The position numbers were made by a program, and so were the translations under genes. From Phyllobacterium chamaecytisi (GTDB lineage: Bacteria; Pseudomonadota; Alphaproteobacteria; Rhizobiales; Rhizobiaceae): a DNA stretch of 64,000 nucleotides. The stretch is taken from the NCBI RefSeq assembly GCF_020164455.1, contig NZ_JAIQWW010000001.1:1-64000 (forward strand). The letters run 5' to 3'. Under the pieces are notes generated by a model, which did not search any database, was not told the DNA's origin, and saw only the letters and a list, made by a program, of their open reading frames with translations. Numbering within the stretch: position 1 is the stretch's first letter; every line of letters starts with the position of its first letter. This document shows, piece after piece, positions 50,667-62,421 of the stretch.

Positions 50667-51428
50667 ATGGCGAAAATCGTGCGCTCAACGTCTGCAATCA
50701 TCACTGCAATTGTTCTCGGCGCCTCCGTCGTCACGGCAGCAGCCAAGGAACATCCTCACTTCATAGAACCCAAACTTTTCATCACCAGAGGCGGCGATGC
50801 AACGCCGCAAGTCGCGTTGACGCTGGATGCCTGTTCCGGCCAGACAGATCAGCGTATTCTCAACGCGTTGGTTGAAAACCATATCCCGGCGACAATCTTT
50901 GTCACCGGCCGCTGGCTCAGGCGCAATGCCCCTTCAGTAGCGATCATGAAAGCGCATCCAGACCTGTTTGAACTGGAAAATCATGGGCTTAACCATATCC
51001 CGGCCATAGACGACCAAGCCAGGATGTTCGGCCTGAAGACGGCAGGATCTCTACCTGCTATCCGCACGGAGATCGAAGGCGGTGCGAATGCGATGATTGC
51101 AGCAACACTGACGAAGCCGGCCTGGTATCGTGACGCGACGGCACGCTACAGCGACGATGCGATAGCACTCGCCCATCAGATGGGATACCGGGTGGCCGGC
51201 TATTCCCTGAACGCCGATGTGGGTGCCTCGTTGCTGGCCGGCCAGGTTGAAAAGCGAATTTCAGCCGCCAAGGACGGCGACGTGATCATCGCCCATGTGA
51301 ACCAGCCGACGCGAGCAGCGGGAGAGGGTGTCGTCAAAGGCATTCTCGCGCTCAAGCAAAAGGGCTTCCATTTTGCGCGCCTTGAGGACGTTCAGGAGAG
51401 CGAGCAGCCAGTGCGGCCGGGCGTTTAA
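50667..51428 (+). CDS. Polysaccharide deacetylase (CE4-like), exported
   Basis: This 253-residue protein has a signal peptide (about 1-26) and a NodB-type domain. The first motif reads LTLDACSGQTD instead of TFDDG: the catalytic-base Asp is present, the metal-ligand Asp is replaced by Ala, and a later Asp in the loop may substitute, as in the DACGG-type subgroup. The His motif is intact as NHGLNH, and IPATIFVTGRWL is standard. It should deacylate a cell-surface or external polysaccharide. Its role is not certain, and the motif change leaves activity open. No strong ribosome site is visible. Confidence 0.85.
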   Translation: MAKIVRSTSAIITAIVLGASVVTAAAKEHPHFIEPKLFITRGGDATPQVALTLDACSGQTDQRILNALVENHIPATIFVTGRWLRRNAPSVAIMKAHPDLFELENHGLNHIPAIDDQARMFGLKTAGSLPAIRTEIEGGANAMIAATLTKPAWYRDATARYSDDAIALAHQMGYRVAGYSLNADVGASLLAGQVEKRISAAKDGDVIIAHVNQPTRAAGEGVVKGILALKQKGFHFARLEDVQESEQPVRPGV

Positions 51429-51784
51429 CCATCGTTGATATTTATACGACTATCGAAATATCTAGACTTTGGGATAATTGACAGGCTTGTCTGTATTGTG
51501 TTCGTTGCGGAACGCTCATTGAGCGACACCTTGGGAGGGGTTCATCCGCATGAAGATATAAAAATTCATATGATTTTTGCGGATACATCCGCGCAGTTCA
51601 TTTTTTAGCGAACCATTTGTAAAAGACAGAACCACACCAGAGCTGGATCAAATATGTGATGCGCGATTGTGCCGACACGGCCAACCGCGCAACGGCGCCG
51701 CAAGTTCGGACGTAGCTGCGTATGTCATTGATTTTCCGTCGAAATGTCTGGTTTTGCCTCACCTTGATTTGAGGAGGAATTATC
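51429..51784. other. 356-base non-coding region before the collagen/GH31 gene
   Basis: This AT-richer gap holds no convincing gene. A TTGACA lies at 51478-51483, but no good -10 is at 16-18 bases. A strong AGGAGG ribosome site close to 51785 belongs to the next gene. I see no other structure. Confidence 0.5.
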
Positions 51785-54613
51785 TTGAACCGCATTCAAA
51801 TTTCCATACTGAGCTTGATGTTATTGCCGGGTCTCGCTGGTTGCAACGATTCAAAGACAGACACAGCACAATCAGGCGGTGGTACATTTGCCGGTCTGCC
51901 TGGACCCAAGGGTGAGCCCGGCGAAAAGGGACCAACTGGCGACAAAGGCGAAGCTGGCGGCAAGGGTGAAGTCGGAGACGCAGGCACAAACGGAGACAAA
52001 GGCGAGGCTGGCGATAAGGGTCTGGCCGGAGACAAAGGTGAGGATGGTGACAAAGGTGAGGCTGGCGACAACGGCGCAAACGGAGACAAAGGCGGGGCCG
52101 GAGACAAAGGCGAGGCCGGCGACAAAGGGCTGGCCGGAGATAAAGGCGAAGTTGGCCTCAAGGGCGAAGTTGGGGACAAGGGTGGAACGACGGTCGAGCC
52201 GGTAAGGGACGGCACTATCACACCAAGGCCGGGCGGCTTTGACGTGCAGTTGCAGAAAGACGTGCTCGAGGTTCGTGCAGTGACCGCCAACGCGTTTCGG
52301 GTTCATTATTTGCTGGATGGAAAGGGCACAGAGAAAACTCGGGTGATCGACCCTTCCTTTAAATCCGATGCCACCTACGAGTTGAAGGACTCAATTCTTC
52401 CGACGGATAAAGACCTTGTTCTGGGACAATACACCGCCCGCTGGAATCCTTCAGACGCAACTGTCTCGATTCTCGACGCCAAAAGCGCGAAGGTGATGAC
52501 GATCGATGTCAACGAGCTCAAGATCGGCAACGTCAACGTAGAGCACAATGCAAATGATCTTCGTTACGGTATCAATGGCAGTGGGGTGGGTGAACATCCC
52601 ACTTCCCTCTTTCGCAACTGGGAAGAGGGCCTGAACGCCGGCGATCAGGGTCACGCTGGTGCACCCTTTGTCTGGAGCACCGCAGGCTATGGGGTTCTTG
52701 TCGATACGATGGGTTCTGCCAGCAGGAAGATTGATCTGCGCGACAACAGAAGCATCAAATTCCTTGGCACGTCAAAGATTGATACAGATGCCTATTTACT
52801 CGTGGGCCGTCCGCCCGAGTTGTTCGGTGCACTTGCGAAGATAAGCGGACGTTCACCGCTATTTCCAAAATGGGCCATGGGCTTTACCAACAGCCAATGG
52901 GGCGCAGACGATCAATGGGATGGATACAGGTACGACAAAGGTCTTAACGAAGCAAAGCTTCGTAAAATCATCAGTCGTTACCGAAGCGAAGGCATACCGA
53001 TCGACGCATTCACATTTGACCTGGACTGGATGTACTGGGCCAGAGGCGACATTCCCTATAGCCAGTTTACCTGGAACTTAGAAAAATTTCCCGGAATGGC
53101 GGCGAATGTTCCAGATAATGACAAGCTGAAGCTGTGGCTTGACGGGCAGGGTGTCAAGATGACGGCTATCTTGAAGCCCCGTATCCCGGTCAAATCAGTC
53201 GAAGGGGAGGTTGCACAGAGCCGTAGTTTCTGGATGCCCACTACAAAAGACCAAGATGATTACTTCTTAAAGACTACAAAGATGCGGCACCTGAATTTCG
53301 CGAAGCCCGAGGTTACCGCATGGTATTTTGACCATCTTAAAGGTGCGTTCGATTCCGGTATTGCGGGCTGGTGGAATGATGAGTTCGATTCGAGTGAAGC
53401 CGCTGATGACGGTAATGAAACCGAAGGTTTCGATATGCAACGCGCGGTCTACGAATGGCAGCGCAGCTACGCGCCAGAAAAACGCGTCTGGTCCATCAAC
53501 CGTAACTTCTATCTGGGCGCTCAACGCTACGCCTATGGGCTCTGGTCGGGCGATATCGAAAATGGCTTCCAGGTCATGGCTGATCAGCGCAAGAAAATGC
53601 TGAGTGCAATCAATGCCGGCGCCATGCAATGGACCATGGATACCGGTGGCTTTCGCAATGGAAAGGGAACGAAAGATGGTGCCACCGGCCCTGAGGATTA
53701 TGCGCGCTGGATGCAGTTTGCGATTTTTACCCCGATGTTCCGCGTCCACGGTGACAATGGGATACAGCGCCAACCTTGGTATTATGTACCAAACAAGCCT
53801 CATTCGAGCGAGCCTCAAGCAATGAAGGATACCGCAATGTACGAGGCGATCAAGCTGCGCTACAAGCTCATTCCCTATATTTACAGTTACGAACATCAGC
53901 GCAACAAAACCGGCGTCGGCATTGTCCGTCCATTGATATTCGATTGGCCGGAAGACAAGAAAGTTGAAAGCGATATCGACAGCTGGCTGTTCGGCGATTG
54001 GCTGCTGGCCTCTCCGGTGGTGACGCAAGGACAGGGGAACAAGGATATCTACCTTCCTGCGGGGAGCTGGACCGAGTGGAATTCAGGTCAAACGAAGCAG
54101 GGTGGCCAGTCGACCAGCTTCAATACAGTCAAATGGGAGAATAACTTCCCGCTGTTCATCCGCCAGGGTGCGATTATCCCGATGATGCACGAAGACGTGC
54201 AATATGTGGGAGAAAAGCCGCTCAAAGAACTGGATGTGGAAGTGTTCCCGGACACAAAGCGCACGTCGTTCGAGTATTATGATGATGACGGCAAAACCTA
54301 TGATTATGAGAAGGGTGTATATTTCCTGCAGAACTTGTCCGTGCAACGGACTGGCAAAACGGTTCTATTCGAAACAGCTACTCCAGAGGGTAGTTTCACA
54401 CCGGAACTCGAATATTATACTGTGAAGATTCATGGCCCTGTTGCCACGAGTGCCGAGTTGAATGGCGCGAAGCTCGATCAGGTTGCAAACCAGGCCGCTC
54501 TGACCGGCGAAGGCTGGTATTCGGGACTGGACGAGGCTCATGGCAATATACCAGTGACCTATGTTCGGTTAAACGCCCGGAAACAGCAAAGCGTTACGCT
54601 GACCACCCAGTGA
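51785..54613 (+). CDS. Lipoprotein with collagen-like repeat fused to GH31 glycoside hydrolase
   Basis: This 942-residue exported protein has three parts. A lipoprotein signal ends in L-A-G-C with Cys20. A collagen-type region of 33 Gly-X-Y triplets spans about 37-135 (GLPGPKGEPGEKG...). The rest is a family 31 glycoside hydrolase: a beta-sandwich (about 145-370), a TIM barrel with the likely nucleophile Asp532 in WWNDEFDSSE and acid/base Asp590 in SGDIENGF, and C-terminal beta domains. GH31 members act on alpha-glucosides, alpha-xylosides and related bonds; the substrate is not predictable. The start is TTG after AGGAGG. The protein should be anchored on the membrane with a rod-like collagen stalk. 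Confidence 0.9.
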   Translation: MNRIQISILSLMLLPGLAGCNDSKTDTAQSGGGTFAGLPGPKGEPGEKGPTGDKGEAGGKGEVGDAGTNGDKGEAGDKGLAGDKGEDGDKGEAGDNGANGDKGGAGDKGEAGDKGLAGDKGEVGLKGEVGDKGGTTVEPVRDGTITPRPGGFDVQLQKDVLEVRAVTANAFRVHYLLDGKGTEKTRVIDPSFKSDATYELKDSILPTDKDLVLGQYTARWNPSDATVSILDAKSAKVMTIDVNELKIGNVNVEHNANDLRYGINGSGVGEHPTSLFRNWEEGLNAGDQGHAGAPFVWSTAGYGVLVDTMGSASRKIDLRDNRSIKFLGTSKIDTDAYLLVGRPPELFGALAKISGRSPLFPKWAMGFTNSQWGADDQWDGYRYDKGLNEAKLRKIISRYRSEGIPIDAFTFDLDWMYWARGDIPYSQFTWNLEKFPGMAANVPDNDKLKLWLDGQGVKMTAILKPRIPVKSVEGEVAQSRSFWMPTTKDQDDYFLKTTKMRHLNFAKPEVTAWYFDHLKGAFDSGIAGWWNDEFDSSEAADDGNETEGFDMQRAVYEWQRSYAPEKRVWSINRNFYLGAQRYAYGLWSGDIENGFQVMADQRKKMLSAINAGAMQWTMDTGGFRNGKGTKDGATGPEDYARWMQFAIFTPMFRVHGDNGIQRQPWYYVPNKPHSSEPQAMKDTAMYEAIKLRYKLIPYIYSYEHQRNKTGVGIVRPLIFDWPEDKKVESDIDSWLFGDWLLASPVVTQGQGNKDIYLPAGSWTEWNSGQTKQGGQSTSFNTVKWENNFPLFIRQGAIIPMMHEDVQYVGEKPLKELDVEVFPDTKRTSFEYYDDDGKTYDYEKGVYFLQNLSVQRTGKTVLFETATPEGSFTPELEYYTVKIHGPVATSAELNGAKLDQVANQAALTGEGWYSGLDEAHGNIPVTYVRLNARKQQSVTLTTQ
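51893..52189 (+). repeat. In-frame collagen-like Gly-X-Y repeat DNA
   Basis: Ninety-nine codons give 33 consecutive Gly-X-Y triplets, rich in G-D-K and G-E-A. The block GDKGEAGDKGLAGDKGE occurs twice, 12 triplets (108 bases) apart, so the DNA has internal repeats that could slip or recombine in frame. Confidence 0.85.
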
Positions 54614-54621
54614 TAAAATCA

Positions 54622-54656
54622 TGAAAGGGCAGTCTCAGACTGCCCTTTCATATCTT
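54622..54656. terminator. Bidirectional terminator between GH31 and aminotransferase genes
   Basis: A perfect 14-base inverted repeat (54622-54635 and 54637-54650) lies between two convergent genes. T-rich tails are modest: TATCTT on the + side and TGATTTT on the - side. It is well placed to end both transcripts. Confidence 0.75.
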
Positions 54657-54668
54657 AACCAATTGAAA

Positions 54669-56063
54669 TCACACCACCCGTAGCCCGTTCTTCGACACGT
54701 AAGCCTCGGTGTCGGCCAGGGCCAATTCGAAGCGATTGAAGAGTTCGTTGAGTTCATCCTCGGTGATTATCATCGGCGGGCAGAACGCAATTGTATCGCC
54801 AAGGGCGCGAAGTATGGCGCCATGTCCTTCGAGAAACTTTGCAAGATTTGATCCAACGCCATGCGCTGGGTCGAAGGAGCGTTTCGTGGCCTTGTCAGCA
54901 ACCAATTCCACAGCTCCTACAAGTCCGCAGGAACGAACTTCACCCACGAGCGGATGATCTTCGATTTTGGCAAGGCGAGCTTCGAAAGTCGGCGTCAGCC
55001 CGCGCACATACTCGACAATATTCCGGCGCTGGTAGATTTCGATTGCCTTCACGCCAAGCGCGCACCCGACCGGATGACCGCCATAAGTGAAACCATGGCC
55101 GAAACTGCCGAGCTGGGCGCTGTGGTCGACATAGGCCTGGTAGACGTCCTCGGGAACGAGCACGGCACCGAGCGGCGCATAGGCTGCGGTCAGCTGTTTG
55201 GCAACGGATATGGTTGTCGGTGTCATGCCGACGCTCTGGCTCCCCCACCAGTTGCCCGTACGGCCGAAACCGTTGATGACTTCGTCGGCGATGATGAGAA
55301 TATCATGCTCGCGCAGGATCGGTTCGATGGCGGCGAAGTAGCTCGAAGGCGGAACGATGACGCCGCCAGCACCCATGACAGGTTCGGCGATAAAGGCGGC
55401 AATAGTGTCTGGGCCTTCGCGTTCGATCATATCTTTCAATGACTTGGCAAGTCGCGCCACAAATTCGGCCTCGCTTTCGCCCTCGAGGCCGAAACGATAA
55501 TAATGCGGGCAATCCGTATGCAGCACGCGGTCCACGGGCAAGTCCCAGCCCTTGTGGTTCCCGGGCAGGCCGGTCAGCGACGCGGCCATGACCGTGACGC
55601 CATGATAAGCCTTGACGCGGGAGATGATCTTCTTCTTTTCCGGTCGGCCAAGGGCGTTGTTATAGTACCAGGCAAGCTTGACCTGCGTGTCGTTTGCCTC
55701 GGAACCGGACGATGTATAGAACACTTTCGAAATCGGCACCGGCGCGATTTCCTTAAGCTTTTCAGCAAGTTCGATAGCTGGCTCCATACCCTTGCCACCG
55801 AAGAGATGGTAATAGGGCAGGGTGCGCATCTGCTCATTGGCTGCCTCGATCATCTCCTCGTCGCCATATCCGAGACCGGCGCACCACAGACCCGACATGC
55901 CCTCGATATATTCCTTGCCTTGAGTGTCGTAGAGGTAGACGCCTTTGCCATGCCCTATGACCAGCGGCCCGGTTTCTGCAAGCTTGTGGAGGGGAGTATA
56001 GGGGTGCAAAACCGCGTTGATATCGCGCTGCTGGACATTGGTAAGGGGATGGCCATTCGCCAT
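54669..56063 (-). CDS. Class III omega-aminotransferase
   Basis: This 464-residue PLP enzyme belongs to the class III (subgroup II) aminotransferases that act on omega-amino acids or amines with pyruvate or 2-oxoglutarate as acceptor. PLP Lys289 is in ISVAKQLTAAYAPLG and Asp260 in IIADEVINGFGRTG. YTSSGSEANDTQ (116-127) binds phosphate. The region around W60 and Y85 resembles beta-alanine/pyruvate and polyamine-type transaminases; substrate is open. It is convergent with the GH31 gene. No dehydrogenase or decarboxylase partner is nearby. Confidence 0.92.
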   Translation of the reverse strand: MANGHPLTNVQQRDINAVLHPYTPLHKLAETGPLVIGHGKGVYLYDTQGKEYIEGMSGLWCAGLGYGDEEMIEAANEQMRTLPYYHLFGGKGMEPAIELAEKLKEIAPVPISKVFYTSSGSEANDTQVKLAWYYNNALGRPEKKKIISRVKAYHGVTVMAASLTGLPGNHKGWDLPVDRVLHTDCPHYYRFGLEGESEAEFVARLAKSLKDMIEREGPDTIAAFIAEPVMGAGGVIVPPSSYFAAIEPILREHDILIIADEVINGFGRTGNWWGSQSVGMTPTTISVAKQLTAAYAPLGAVLVPEDVYQAYVDHSAQLGSFGHGFTYGGHPVGCALGVKAIEIYQRRNIVEYVRGLTPTFEARLAKIEDHPLVGEVRSCGLVGAVELVADKATKRSFDPAHGVGSNLAKFLEGHGAILRALGDTIAFCPPMIITEDELNELFNRFELALADTEAYVSKNGLRVV

Positions 56064-56929: not shown

Positions 56930-59900
56930 ATGGAAAGACGCGACTTTATCAAGATGCTCGGCATTGCCGGCACGAGTGCTGCGGCCTATACGGCTTGTTC
57001 CAATTATATGAGTGACGCTCTGGCACAGTCCACCAGCATAGATGATTTGCTGAGCACTGCAGCGCATTGCAATGGAGGCTCGCTCAAGGACGTTGAGCAC
57101 GTGATCCTCTTGATGCAGGAGAACCGCTCCTTCGATCATTATTACGGCACTTTGCGCGGCGTGCGCGGCTTCGGCGATCCGCGGCCCTTGCGGCTCAAGA
57201 GTGGTGTATCGGTGTTCAACCAGCCAAGAGCGCCGCTCCTTTCGTCATTCAGCTATTCGTTCAACAACGTTAGCTGGGATATGATCGAAGCTTTCGTCGC
57301 ACCATTCGAGCCGGCACAGCTCAAGCGGCTCCTCAGGGAGCAGATTGATATGATGTTCCCGACGGCGGCGCCGACGGTCACACCGTTGATCGATACCATG
57401 CCCGATGATTTTCTCCTGCGTGTGCTGCGCAGCGACTGGGACAGCCTGCTGCCGCCGGAGATGGCCGGCAAGACCATTCCGGAGTTACTGGAGAAACTAA
57501 AAGACGGCCTCGTGGTTTTGAAGCCTGACGATATCGATCCGACGTTTGCCGATATAGTGAAGAATGGAGTTATGTCTCTATTCGACAACAAGGAGGTGCT
57601 GGATCTGATCGGAAAGGCCCTGCCAGAGGGCGGTTTCCTCAAGCCCGATATGATCAAAGGGATGATGGAAGGGATGCCGGCGCAACAGGTTGTTGCAACC
57701 CTTGTGGGTCTTGTCGCCTCTCTGATCAAGATTGATGAATTGAAGACCTCCTGGCCCAGTGCGGTCGCGGTGTTGCCGTCGCTTGGCAAGGGCTTGCCAA
57801 ATCTGGCGGAACTCTTCCATTGGTTGCAGGGACTGTCGAAGGAGTTCGCGGCGTCACCGGTCGTTGGCAAGTTGCCGCAGGACCCTCAATCGATACCTCT
57901 TGAAATTGCCAAATATATTCCCGAGGATATCAAGGCCCAGTATCCGAAGCTTGTTGCCTTGCTTAAAGGCAAGGGGCACATCAAACCGTTCCAGGTGCAG
58001 CGCGGTACCGATTCAGCCGGTGAATATAAATCATTCGGGCTGATGCACACCTATGACGATCAGCGTGATGCCATCAATCGCGGCTGGAATGATCAATGGA
58101 TGCTGACAAAGGGCGAGGCGGCGATGGCGCATCTCGATGTCGCCAAGGACCTTTCATTCTACCACAAGCTTGTGGACGCCTTCACCATTTGCGACGGATA
58201 TCATTGTTCTTCCCATACGGGGACGGACCCTAATCGTGCCCATTTTTATTCAGGCACGGCCAATGGCTGGACCAGCAATCTGTTTTTCAGCGGCGGCAAA
58301 ACCGTGCCCGACTGGAAAACCTATCCGGAGACGTTGCAGAACCTGGGTGTAAGCTGGAAATGCTATCAGGATGGCCTGGGAGAAGAAGACTTATTTCATG
58401 GCAATTTCGGCGACAATCTGCTGGCGGATTTCAAGCAATATAAAGTTGCCGACAGTGAAATCGCCAAGCATACGCTGATCGTGAACACGATATTACGCAC
58501 CGATGCCGATGTCCCCTCGCAACTGGAAAAGGATATCGCTGAGGGTACGCTGCCCGCCGTTTCCTGGATCGCCGCGCCCCAGGCCTTCTGCGAACATCCA
58601 AGCGGTATCTCGCCGCATTTCGGCGAATATTACGTTAACCAGATATTGAAAGCTCTCGCGGCCAATCCGGAAGTGTGGAAGAAGACCGTCTTCATCATCA
58701 ATTACGATGAAAATGACGGTTTCTTCGATCACGTGCCGCCGCCATTGCCGCCGTTGCCCGCAGCCAAGGATGCAGGCAAGGTCTCGGATGGCATCGCGAT
58801 TTCAGCGAACGGCTTCAATGCAGAACATGCGACGAAACTGGCGCAGGACCTTGTCACGGCGGAGTATGCCCGCTATCCGACCGGGCCCAAAGAGCAACTG
58901 ACCATGGGTCTCGGCTGCCGTGTGCCTTGCCTTATCATATCGCCATGGACTGTCGGCGGGCGTGTCTGCTCCGAACTCTTCGACCATACCTCGACCTTGC
59001 GCTTCCTCGACACGTGGCTTGCGGCCAGGGGAATGCAACCGGCCGGCTCGACGTTCGAGAACATATCTTCCTGGCGTCGAGCCATTTGCGGCGACATGAC
59101 CAGCGCCTTCGATTTTACCCGCAAGCTCGACACCGTCGCCAGCCAGGGCAAGACCAGGATCGATGCGGCGGTTGCGGCGATAAAGTCTGTTCCGGCTTAC
59201 CGGACCGAGGCCGATCAAGCGGCGCTGATGAAGGCTCTGCCAAAGTATGAGGGGAAGGGAACCGATATCGCCGCCGACCTGGCCAAGGAAACACGGCTAA
59301 AGCAGGATCGGACGCAGGTGGAGCTCTTGCCACTCGGCTATGATTTCAACGTCCTTTCTGCCATTACCGAAGACGCTGGCAACCCGGACAAGTTCAAACT
59401 GACCTTCCGTAATAAGGGGAAGATCGGTGTCGCACTCAATGTCTATTCCTACCATAACTACGACGAGGACAGGGGTGCCTGGTTCTATGCGCTGACCAAG
59501 GCGGACAAGGATGGCAAACCTGTGGAACTTGCCGATGAGTACGATCTCATCGCGCGCGGCGGCGCCTATGAATTTGCCGTGCACGGCCCGAACGGCTTCT
59601 TGGCCGAGTTCAAGGGAGATACGAACCGGACGGAGCAGCGGCTTCCGGAGGTGATCGATATACGCTCGATCGACGGCGGCGAGACGGTCGAGTTCGTGTT
59701 CGATAAGTGGCCGACAGCCAATGGCAGCATAAAGGCAATCTCTGCCTATACCGGGCAGATAACTTATTTAAGCAGCGGCGCAATCAAACTTGCTTTGCCA
59801 ACCGAGAATGGTTGGTACGATGTCTCTTTTATCGACAGCGACAACGCTATCGTGGTGTCAGCGGAAACGACCACCGGTTATCTGCGACGTTATGCCGGGC

Positions 59901-59992
59901 ATCTCGAAAACGGCAAGCTCAGCAAGACCGACCCTGCCATCGGCAGGAAATATAACGAGAAAACCAGAATTTACGAGGCGGCGACAGCCTGA
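56930..59992 (+). CDS. Tat-exported phospholipase C-type phosphoesterase with ~240-residue insert (copy 1)
   Basis: This 1020-residue protein is of the non-haemolytic phospholipase C / acid phosphatase family. The Tat signal is ERRDFIKMLG with a likely SPase I site after A-L-A. The catalytic phosphoesterase domain has MQENRSFDHYYGTLRGVRGF (63-82), the HTGTDPNR loop (Thr about 432) and NYDENDGFFDHV. C-terminal beta domains of the bacterial PLC type follow (TRLKQDRTQVELLPLGYDF). Compared with copy 2, about 240 extra residues (101-348) lie between the first motif and GHIKPFQ; they are helical and unrecognised. The family hydrolyses phosphatidylcholine or related phosphodiesters. Confidence 0.92.
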   Translation: MERRDFIKMLGIAGTSAAAYTACSNYMSDALAQSTSIDDLLSTAAHCNGGSLKDVEHVILLMQENRSFDHYYGTLRGVRGFGDPRPLRLKSGVSVFNQPRAPLLSSFSYSFNNVSWDMIEAFVAPFEPAQLKRLLREQIDMMFPTAAPTVTPLIDTMPDDFLLRVLRSDWDSLLPPEMAGKTIPELLEKLKDGLVVLKPDDIDPTFADIVKNGVMSLFDNKEVLDLIGKALPEGGFLKPDMIKGMMEGMPAQQVVATLVGLVASLIKIDELKTSWPSAVAVLPSLGKGLPNLAELFHWLQGLSKEFAASPVVGKLPQDPQSIPLEIAKYIPEDIKAQYPKLVALLKGKGHIKPFQVQRGTDSAGEYKSFGLMHTYDDQRDAINRGWNDQWMLTKGEAAMAHLDVAKDLSFYHKLVDAFTICDGYHCSSHTGTDPNRAHFYSGTANGWTSNLFFSGGKTVPDWKTYPETLQNLGVSWKCYQDGLGEEDLFHGNFGDNLLADFKQYKVADSEIAKHTLIVNTILRTDADVPSQLEKDIAEGTLPAVSWIAAPQAFCEHPSGISPHFGEYYVNQILKALAANPEVWKKTVFIINYDENDGFFDHVPPPLPPLPAAKDAGKVSDGIAISANGFNAEHATKLAQDLVTAEYARYPTGPKEQLTMGLGCRVPCLIISPWTVGGRVCSELFDHTSTLRFLDTWLAARGMQPAGSTFENISSWRRAICGDMTSAFDFTRKLDTVASQGKTRIDAAVAAIKSVPAYRTEADQAALMKALPKYEGKGTDIAADLAKETRLKQDRTQVELLPLGYDFNVLSAITEDAGNPDKFKLTFRNKGKIGVALNVYSYHNYDEDRGAWFYALTKADKDGKPVELADEYDLIARGGAYEFAVHGPNGFLAEFKGDTNRTEQRLPEVIDIRSIDGGETVEFVFDKWPTANGSIKAISAYTGQITYLSSGAIKLALPTENGWYDVSFIDSDNAIVVSAETTTGYLRRYAGHLENGKLSKTDPAIGRKYNEKTRIYEAATA

Positions 59993-60087: not shown

Positions 60088-62421
60088 ATGGAAAGACGCG
60101 ATTTCATCAAGATGCTGGGCATTGCCGGCACCAGCGCTGCGGCCTATACGGCTTGTTCCAACTATATGAGTGAGGCGCTGGCGCAATCGACGGTGATCGA
60201 CGATTTGCTGACCGCTTCGGCTGATTGCAAGCTCGGCTCGCTCAAGGATATCGATCATGTGATTTTCCTGATGCAGGAAAACCGCTCCTTCGATCATTAT
60301 TATGGGACCTTGCGCGGGGTGCGCGGCTTTGGTGACCCGCGGCCGCTGCGGCTGAAAAATGGCGAGAGTGTTTTCAACCAGCCGAAAGGGAAGCTCAAGC
60401 TCAGTGGCAGCCACATCAAGCCGTTTCAGATAAGGCGGGGAGTGGAATCGGCAGGCGATTATAAGGGGTTTGGATTGGCCCATGGCTATACTGATGGTTT
60501 AAGCGCGCTTGGCGGCGGCTGGAACGATAATTGGATAGTCGCCAAAGCCAACGATGCCTCGGCAATGGCGCATCTTGAGACAAGCAAGGATCTCCCATTC
60601 TACCAAAAGCTCATTGAAGCGTTCACGATTTGCGACGGCTACCACTGCTCAATGCATGGATCAACGTCGCCCAACCGCTCGTATCACTTGACCGGCACAG
60701 CGAGCGGAGGAACCGAAAACAAATATTTCGGCGACACCACCGAGAAGGGTCTGCCGGTCCCGGATTGGAAAACCTATCCTGAAAGATTGCAGGATCTTAA
60801 GGTTAGCTGGAAATTCTACAAGAATGATCTTGTCACCGACGGCACGGGCTTGAAGGACAGTTTCAGCGGTGTATATGCGAACAGTACGCTCCGTTTCTTC
60901 AAACAGTTCCAGGATAAAGAAACCGACTTTGCAAAACAGTTTGCGATCAACAGTTCCGTTTTGCGCAACAGCGCCACACCGGACGAGCCATCACAATTTG
61001 AGCTAGATGTGAGGGATGGCAATCTGCCCGCTGTTTCGTGGGTCATGGCAAATGGGGCTTTCCACGAGCATCCGGGCTCAACCACGCCGCATTTTGGCGA
61101 ATTCTACGTCAATGAAATATTGAAAGTGCTTGTTACCTATCCGGAAGTCTGGAAGAAAACCGTGTTCATCCTCAATTATGACGAGAATGACGGGTTTTTC
61201 GACCATGTGCCGCCACCCCTCTCGCCGCTGCCAGGCGTGAAAGATGTTGGCAAGGTTTCGGCAGGCATCGTCATTCCGGAAGCGGGCGATGTGACGAATG
61301 TAGATACTGAAAGCATGATATTTCCCAAGGTCGACGCCACAAAGACCCTGGGCCTTGGCTCGCGCGTTCCTTGCCTGATCGTATCTCCCTGGACAGCTGG
61401 CGGGCGGGTCTGTTCCGAACTCTTCGACCATACCTCGACATTGCGCTTTCTCGATACGTGGCTGGTGGCCAAGGGGCTGCAGCCGGAGGGAACGATTTTC
61501 GATAACATCTCCTCTTGGCGCCGGGCGATATGCGGAGACTTGACCAGTGCGTTCGATTTCAATCGGAGCGGAGCCAAGATCGCCAAACAAAGCCTTGCAC
61601 AATTGAGTGATGTCACGAAAATCGTCAAACCAGTTACAACATATGTCAAGCCGAAAGATTACGCCGAATTCCTGAAAAATCTCCCGCAATATACAGGCGA
61701 GGATGCGGACATCGCCATCGACAATGCCAAGGAGACGCGTCTGAAACAGGACCGCACGCAGGTGGAGCTTTTGCCGCTTGGCTATGATTTCAACGTGTTT
61801 GCGACGATCATCACCAAGGCCGATGCGGCTAAAACCGACAAGCTGCTGCAACTGACCTTCAGAAACAGGGGCAGGATCGGCGTTGCGCTCAATGTTTATT
61901 CCTATGTGAAAGCGGATGAGAAGCGGGGCGCCTGGTTTTATGCGCTGACCAAGGCTGCAAAGACCGATGCGCCGGTGGTGGTCTCCGATGAATACGATCT
62001 CGTCAAACGCGGCGGCAAATATGAATTTGCCGTGCATGCACCGAATGGCTATCTGAGTGAATTCCGGGGCGATGCCAACAATGCCAATCAGAAGCTGATC
62101 GCGGATATTGTCGATGTGCAATCGGCCGACGACGCAACAAAGGTCCGCTTCGATTTCGGTGCTTGGCCGACGGCCAATGGCGATCTGACGATGATCAATG
62201 CCTATACGGGGGAGAGCGAGACTGTTGCCGCACAAACCACGTCGGTCAGCGCTGCCACCAGGGATGGCTGGTACGATGTGGCTTTCGTCGACAAGGCGGG
62301 CACCGGCTATCTGCGGCGTTATGCCGGCCATCTCGAAAACGGCAAGCTCAGCAAGACCGATCCTGCCATCGGCATTCGATACGATGTGACAAAACGAATT
62401 TACGATTGGGCGGGCGCTTAG
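60088..62421 (+). CDS. Tat-exported phospholipase C-type phosphoesterase (copy 2)
   Basis: This 777-residue paralogue of copy 1 has the same Tat signal and almost the same first 95 residues, then moves directly to SHIKPFQIRRGVESAG without the large insert. Catalytic segments are MQENRSFDHYYG, HGSTSPNR (where copy 1 has HTGTDPNR) and NYDENDGFFDHV. The C-terminal beta domains end in the same LRRYAGHLENGKLSKTDPAIG block as copy 1. Length is close to that of known phosphocholine-specific phospholipases C. GGGGATT precedes the ATG. The loop differences suggest distinct substrates from copy 1. Confidence 0.93.
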   Translation: MERRDFIKMLGIAGTSAAAYTACSNYMSEALAQSTVIDDLLTASADCKLGSLKDIDHVIFLMQENRSFDHYYGTLRGVRGFGDPRPLRLKNGESVFNQPKGKLKLSGSHIKPFQIRRGVESAGDYKGFGLAHGYTDGLSALGGGWNDNWIVAKANDASAMAHLETSKDLPFYQKLIEAFTICDGYHCSMHGSTSPNRSYHLTGTASGGTENKYFGDTTEKGLPVPDWKTYPERLQDLKVSWKFYKNDLVTDGTGLKDSFSGVYANSTLRFFKQFQDKETDFAKQFAINSSVLRNSATPDEPSQFELDVRDGNLPAVSWVMANGAFHEHPGSTTPHFGEFYVNEILKVLVTYPEVWKKTVFILNYDENDGFFDHVPPPLSPLPGVKDVGKVSAGIVIPEAGDVTNVDTESMIFPKVDATKTLGLGSRVPCLIVSPWTAGGRVCSELFDHTSTLRFLDTWLVAKGLQPEGTIFDNISSWRRAICGDLTSAFDFNRSGAKIAKQSLAQLSDVTKIVKPVTTYVKPKDYAEFLKNLPQYTGEDADIAIDNAKETRLKQDRTQVELLPLGYDFNVFATIITKADAAKTDKLLQLTFRNRGRIGVALNVYSYVKADEKRGAWFYALTKAAKTDAPVVVSDEYDLVKRGGKYEFAVHAPNGYLSEFRGDANNANQKLIADIVDVQSADDATKVRFDFGAWPTANGDLTMINAYTGESETVAAQTTSVSAATRDGWYDVAFVDKAGTGYLRRYAGHLENGKLSKTDPAIGIRYDVTKRIYDWAGA

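Follow-up and report, generated by a model that had tools for sequence, protein, structure and literature searches.

A predicted lipoprotein of Phyllobacterium that joins a collagen-like region to a GH31 enzyme

The 64,000-nucleotide stretch of DNA analyzed here (the window; the start of contig NZ_JAIQWW010000001.1 of Phyllobacterium chamaecytisi, a bacterium of soil and plants) raised the question of whether a bacterial lipoprotein, in which a collagen-like repeat precedes a complete glycoside hydrolase of family 31 (GH31), could form a trimer of enzymes held away from the membrane on a collagen stalk. The fusion gene (51785-54613, plus strand) is one open frame of 942 amino acids (aa) with a TTG start, which lies 7 bases behind a ribosome-binding site, GAGGAGG (51771..51777, plus strand); the initial leucine (TTG) of the leader is common to four intact orthologues. 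The predicted lipoprotein signal peptide (residues 1-19; 51785..51841, plus strand) ends at a lipobox, L-A-G-C (residues 17-20), whose cysteine lies where the signal peptide ends, as in bacterial lipoproteins. This Cys20 (51842..51844, plus strand), the predicted lipidation site, is followed in the sequence by Asn. Beyond a spacer, a collagen-like region of 33 uninterrupted Gly-X-Y triplets (residues 37-135; 51893..52189, plus strand) is joined by a short linker to the GH31 enzyme unit (residues 143-942; 52211..54610, plus strand), delimited by Pfam, by its closest match, the alpha-1,6-glucosyltransferase 5x7o, and by the structural model. Four Pfam domains were found, namely Collagen (PF01391), the GH31 barrel (PF01055), PF21365 and DUF5110. 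The original prediction had described a lipobox, a 33-triplet run and a complete GH31 enzyme with both catalytic Asp residues in one frame, and our reading of the frame and the Pfam search agreed with it in coordinates and in every feature. The frame also proved to be intact between repeat and enzyme, as had been claimed, and collagen and enzyme share one open frame in three further Phyllobacterium genome records (G009, G001 and G004), which rules out an artifact in which a frameshift or misassembly fused two genes. Within the 6.36-Mb genome that holds the window, the single GH31 match and the single collagen match both correspond to the fusion gene.

The collagen-like region scored 48.4 bits against PF01391 (cut-off, 27.2) and has the long uninterrupted run expected of a collagen-like protein. 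All 33 glycine codons of the run begin with GG and their third base takes all four letters. Acidic residues occupy position X in 22 of 23 cases, with one Asp in Y, and all 14 Lys residues occupy Y; the same partition of charge holds, with zero exceptions, in all three relatives whose frame is intact and includes collagen. Because the glycine codons uniformly keep GG with a free third base, and because charge is partitioned by X and Y, the run is not a product of chance. Part of this regularity in charge and glycine is nevertheless accounted for by expansion of repeat units, since units of 18, 36 and 54 bases are present in the collagen-coding DNA. The complete set of glycines, the acids in X and the Lys in Y, with the one exception, are consistent with the chemistry of a triple helix, and triple helix and enzyme trimer are thus plausible on these sequence grounds. 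Several observations count against the trimer. Proline is scarce, filling 4 of the 66 X and Y positions, and KG[ED] salt-bridge motifs are not enriched, with 9 seen versus 9.0 expected from shuffled triplets. The structure predicted for a single mature chain (pTM 0.81) displayed a GH31 fold, and its first 120 residues, including the collagen, had a pLDDT of <50. Copies of the gene with a short run or with no stalk point in the same direction.

These copies were sought in a set of 20 Phyllobacterium genomes, the window's included. A copy of the fusion gene was present in 9 of the 20 genomes, five intact and four broken, and 11 had none; weak matches in two of the latter (G006 and G013) are not copies. 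The leader is common to all nine copies and the cysteine is kept in 9 of 9, followed by Asn in eight and by Asp in one (G019); the lipobox variant of P. endophyticum is the less typical L-A-N-C. The length of the run differs widely. Among the open frames, 33 triplets were counted in the window copy, 25 in Candidatus P. onerii, 17 and 20 in P. bourgognense (37 in total, with one Gly-to-Ser break between the two runs), 11 in P. endophyticum and 0 in P. trifolii, whose enzyme is intact. Among the broken copies, that of P. brassicacearum (19 triplets) lacks ~290 core residues and contains a TGA, that of P. sophorae (G011; 7 triplets) is split once, that of G019 (13 triplets) carries several stops, and that of G018 (6 triplets) is scattered across several frames and interrupted by stops. 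The P. brassicacearum and G018 copies look like true pseudogenes on their sequences, and the single split in P. sophorae could be a sequencing error. The breaks in G019 are possibly assembly or sequencing errors as well, because the deacetylase gene next to that copy (L163 and L164) is likewise split into two frames. P. trifolii retains remnants of the repeat edges (FAGLPEHKEEP versus FAGLPGPKGEP), and in a quick tree built from the intact rows it was nested among the copies that carry collagen, so that the sequences are most simply explained by a loss of the collagen in this species. The stalk is therefore a genus-level and dispensable addition to the enzyme, and its exact length would not be needed, given that open-frame relatives span 0 to 37 triplets. 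The case for an important stalk was weakened by this range across nine copies, by the loss in P. trifolii with the frame intact and by the four broken copies, although the fused architecture itself stood.

The variability also bears on the strongest alternative to a trimeric stalk, according to which the Gly-X-Y run is a flexible charged spacer, unfolded or transiently helical, and the enzyme is a monomer or a native GH31 oligomer. We regard this alternative as a serious one that nevertheless falls short of being probable. A spacer may well range from 0 to 37 triplets, vanish in P. trifolii and tolerate a Gly-to-Ser break in P. bourgognense, and it would agree with the low proline content, with KG[ED] motifs at chance level and with a collagen part that the model rendered without confidence. 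It is harder to reconcile with 33 of 33 glycines kept despite drifting third codon bases, and with a near-strict X/Y partition of charge in four intact collagen copies, which a mere spacer does not need; repeat expansion explains a part of this.

As for the enzyme, the TIM-barrel domain (PF01055; 52856..53887, plus strand) scored 194.9 bits, and both this barrel and the C-terminal domain exceeded their Pfam cut-offs, as befits a GH31 member. The two catalytic Asp residues are present: alignment with 5x7o placed D532 in GWWNDE (53378..53380, plus strand) and D590 in LWSGDI (53552..53554, plus strand), which we take from the GH31 pattern to be the nucleophile and the acid/base, respectively. Their columns (positions 513 and 571 counted from Cys20) were invariant in 29 aligned rows. 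When a profile of the 29 rows was compared with PDB sequences, 5x7o scored 861.7 bits and the next entry, a GH31 dextranase, 324.6. Foldseek also ranked 5x7o first by E value. Comparison of folds does not separate the GH31 groups and shows no preference for 5x7o. On sequence grounds, we place the enzyme in the group of 5x7o, the alpha-1,6-glucosyltransferase of Paenibacillus sp. 598K, which is its closest characterized relative. The match covers approximately the whole enzyme unit and both catalytic motifs are common to the two proteins. In contrast to the window protein, the 5x7o chain is 1263 aa long, of which the match spans residues 43 to 816; the chain thus has extra C-terminal parts, and the residues ahead of the match are too few for a collagen stalk of this length.

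The 6-alpha-glucosyltransferase of Paenibacillus sp. 598K is described, in the portion of the source available to us, as an extracellular enzyme that builds isomaltooligosaccharyl ends on alpha-1,4-glucans (PMC13084667). Unlike the Paenibacillus system, the genome that contains the window lacks a GH66 partner; neither GH66 nor a second GH31, the partners in cyclic glucan synthesis, was found in it. For catalysis by an alpha-1,6-glucosyltransferase as such, a partner enzyme is unnecessary. Since the GH66 and the second GH31 were not found in the genome, we infer that the protein is an alpha-glucan glucosidase or transglucosylase that acts alone. Comparison of the intact copies gave dN/dS values of 0.14-0.29 for the enzyme in 7 of 10 pairs, the other three pairs being saturated. 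The pairs that involve the collagen-less P. trifolii yielded 0.14-0.21, values that are rough because all four rest on dS >1. As far as dN/dS goes, purifying selection appears to keep the enzyme with or without the stalk.

All copies of the gene occupy one site. To the left lies a polysaccharide deacetylase-like gene (50667..51428, plus strand), for which all the matched models scored below their curated cut-offs, and to the right a gene named by eye as an aminotransferase (54669..56063, minus strand); both served as markers of the site. A deacetylase match and an aminotransferase match of 88% identity or more were each found in 20 of 20 genomes of the genus, and the two genes flank the fusion copy in 9 of 9 copy-bearing genomes, with ~1.6 kb of extra DNA between copy and aminotransferase in G018. 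In three copy-less genomes (G006, G010 and G016) the site is near-empty, the two matches lying 78, 61 and 73 bases apart, respectively. The interval measures ~1.5 to 20 kb in the other eight (G003, G005, G007, G008 and G012-G015; loci L211-L213 and L217-L221), and nine proteins scanned from seven intervals include phytase-like, citrate synthase, GH2, epimerase and FAD-binding proteins. When the copy-less intervals that were retrieved (about half of the interval in G013) were searched by tblastn with the window protein, the best E value was 1.4. The insertion site is thus a variable spot in the genus, near-empty in three genomes and filled with other DNA in eight. A 15-pair hairpin (54620-54652), which lies where the fusion gene and the aminotransferase gene converge, is possibly a shared terminator; terminator-like sites overall were no more common than in shuffled sequences.

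Outside the genus, we kept the best 80 of 187 relatives on genome contigs, which comprised 6 Phyllobacterium loci and 74 others. Judged by their titles, nearly all of the 74 non-genus relatives come from Rhodanobacteraceae or kin, and 70 are proteobacterial, three are from Bacillota and one is labeled Eremiobacteraeota. None of these 74 loci, drawn from the best 80 of 187 relatives, has a collagen run that reaches 8 triplets, and two (L084 and L094) carry runs of 4 triplets far upstream. Neighboring genes, scored against the genes of one annotated Dyella locus, included an alpha-amylase-like gene in 68 of the 74 loci, a TonB-receptor-like gene in 53 and an MFS transporter in 40, and none of the three kinds occurs in any of the six named Phyllobacterium loci. 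Amylase-like genes near 68 of 74 relatives and TonB-receptor-like genes near 53 of 74 suggest an alpha-glucan substrate for the group; the Phyllobacterium enzyme's own substrate gains no support from its context, because an amylase gene is missing from all six loci. The window enzyme is 45-50% identical in alignment to the Rhodanobacteraceae GH31 enzymes encoded beside an alpha-amylase gene, and it differs from loci of that type, which are without a collagen run of at least 8 triplets and mostly have amylase and TonB-receptor neighbors.

Identity to Rhodanobacteraceae and kin amounts to 42-47% by best segment, whereas across 199 genomes of the family (three from the genus, the window's included) the next-best enzyme matches, own gene aside, were ~30% identical. 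GTDB places Phyllobacterium in Rhizobiaceae; the family label in our tree is Phyllobacteriaceae. In this tree, rooted at the midpoint, the five open Phyllobacterium rows formed a fully supported group on a long stem. Closer kinship with Rhodanobacteraceae than with the family, the long stem and the near-empty sites make it likely, from sequence comparison, that the enzyme was transferred into the genus horizontally, from a donor that the tree does not specify.

The gene might instead be a decaying passenger, that is, a transferred enzyme with a runaway N-terminal repeat that is of little use and is leaving the genus. We consider this improbable. It would explain why 4 of the 9 copies are broken and 11 of the 20 genomes lack the gene, why its surroundings lack the amylase and TonB-receptor genes of the Rhodanobacteraceae loci, and why second GH31 and GH66 are both missing from the genome; it does not sit well with five intact frames whose dN/dS, where computable, is low and whose catalytic residues are conserved. 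A further point against it is that sequencing error may account for two of the four broken copies. A third alternative, in which the protein serves mainly as an adhesin of the collagen-like type and its GH31 part as a binding head, is very unlikely: surface adhesins make up many of the bacterial collagen-like proteins described, as the original prediction also noted, and the collagen part does score with Scl adhesin models, weakly (55.1 bits for a cut-off of 325 and 54.4 bits for one of 400), but both catalytic Asp residues are kept and in P. trifolii the enzyme outlasts the collagen.

We give about an even chance to the whole of the reading that we prefer, in which a lipid-anchored alpha-glucan GH31 enzyme was gained by transfer and is trimerized by its stalk. 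A Phyllobacterium ancestor would have acquired the enzyme horizontally between the deacetylase and aminotransferase genes, and the N terminus of the enzyme would have acquired lipobox and collagen-like stalk. The product would be exported, lipidated at Cys20 and inserted into the outer membrane, its probable location; by the +2 rule, Asn after the lipidated Cys is compatible with outer-membrane sorting. Three chains would probably zip into a rod that ties three enzymes into one membrane-held trimer. With the rise of collagen, 0.286 nm per residue, 33 triplets would give a rod of up to ~28 nm, and those of the relatives, if folded, would measure 0 to ~32 nm. The enzyme would act on alpha-glucans, with maltodextrin-like substrates, either hydrolyzing them or transferring single glucosyl units in the manner of the Paenibacillus alpha-1,6-glucosyltransferase. 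A bolder version, in which three lipid-anchored alpha-glucan transglucosylases share one collagen triple helix at the cell envelope as a natural bacterial counterpart of ColQ-acetylcholinesterase, with a rod length that changes fast from species to species and perhaps with extracellular glucans as substrates, strikes us as doubtful.

As far as genomes were sampled, the fusion of lipoprotein leader, collagen and GH31 appears confined to Phyllobacterium. No sign of a wider distribution was found in the samples of GH31 relatives searched. Searches of 199 family, 397 order and 398 phylum genomes (overlapping sets, with a threshold of 1e-40 for order and phylum) gave, own gene aside, no match to collagen plus enzyme among the matches listed; separate collagen-only matches were listed in the family search. 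In the plasmid collection, 201 records matched, and coverage of the query was 80% or higher in three of them. The 20 matches listed start at residue 132 or later, the collagen ending at residue 135. None of 28 candidate lipoprotein-collagen loci in the family, inspected on both strands, combined the leader of the fusion with the enzyme. Several of these 28 collagen loci resembled phage fibers by eye, and two (L175 and L192) carry a loose lipobox string before the collagen. Of seven further loci inspected in Phyllobacterium, six show at least 8 consecutive triplets in some frame, and the leader is absent from all of them. Two of the genus loci, L133 and L134 (G006 and G010), encode frames of 332 and 394 aa that are rich in collagen-like sequence, are related to each other and end in a conserved tail without collagen. 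Look-alikes occur in other family genomes (L169 and L170), and by eye these frames are possibly phage. The frame at L138 (G005), of 507 aa, comprises a possible outer-membrane barrel (by eye) and then a proline-rich collagen tail with a 22-triplet run.

Both halves of the protein are of known kinds, and their combination has partial precedents. The original prediction held the layout to be an undescribed system, and no published description was found in a literature that included few subscription journals. Collagen-tailed acetylcholinesterase (ColQ) is an enzyme held off membrane or matrix by a collagen tail; that system is animal, and its collagen and enzyme are separate chains. The phage hyaluronate lyase HylP is not known to have a lipid anchor, and its run is shorter than that of the window protein (10 versus 33 triplets). 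As far as the accessible part of the source goes, HylP joins a (Gly-X-Y)10 run to a glycan-cleaving enzyme, and it is a phage-encoded lyase with a triple-stranded beta-helix (PMC4585773). Bucl8 (Burkholderia collagen-like protein 8), in the sections of its description that were available, is an outer-membrane lipoprotein with 6 to 38 repeats whose collagen region was triple-helical by CD, and its GAS-repeat collagen region forms a triple helix without proline and with a variable repeat number (PMC7682875). Unlike the window protein, Bucl8 is an efflux-channel protein whose collagen follows the channel domains, and the same sections describe no enzyme (PMC7682875).

If the triple helix forms, the fusion would be a simple natural case in which collagen trimerizes and tethers a bacterial enzyme, and it would offer protein engineering a charge-rich, proline-poor collagen sequence. 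Phyllobacterium would provide a comparative series in which one enzyme at one site carries 37 triplets (split into two runs), 33, 25, 11 or 0, which would allow direct measurement of the effect of the tether on location, assembly and catalysis. Farther along the window, two consecutive genes of the phospholipase C type lie at 56930-59992 and 60088-62421, both on the plus strand; the first scored 583.2 bits against a model of phosphocholine-specific phospholipase C (cut-off, 580.25), and the second carries PF04185 and PF05506.
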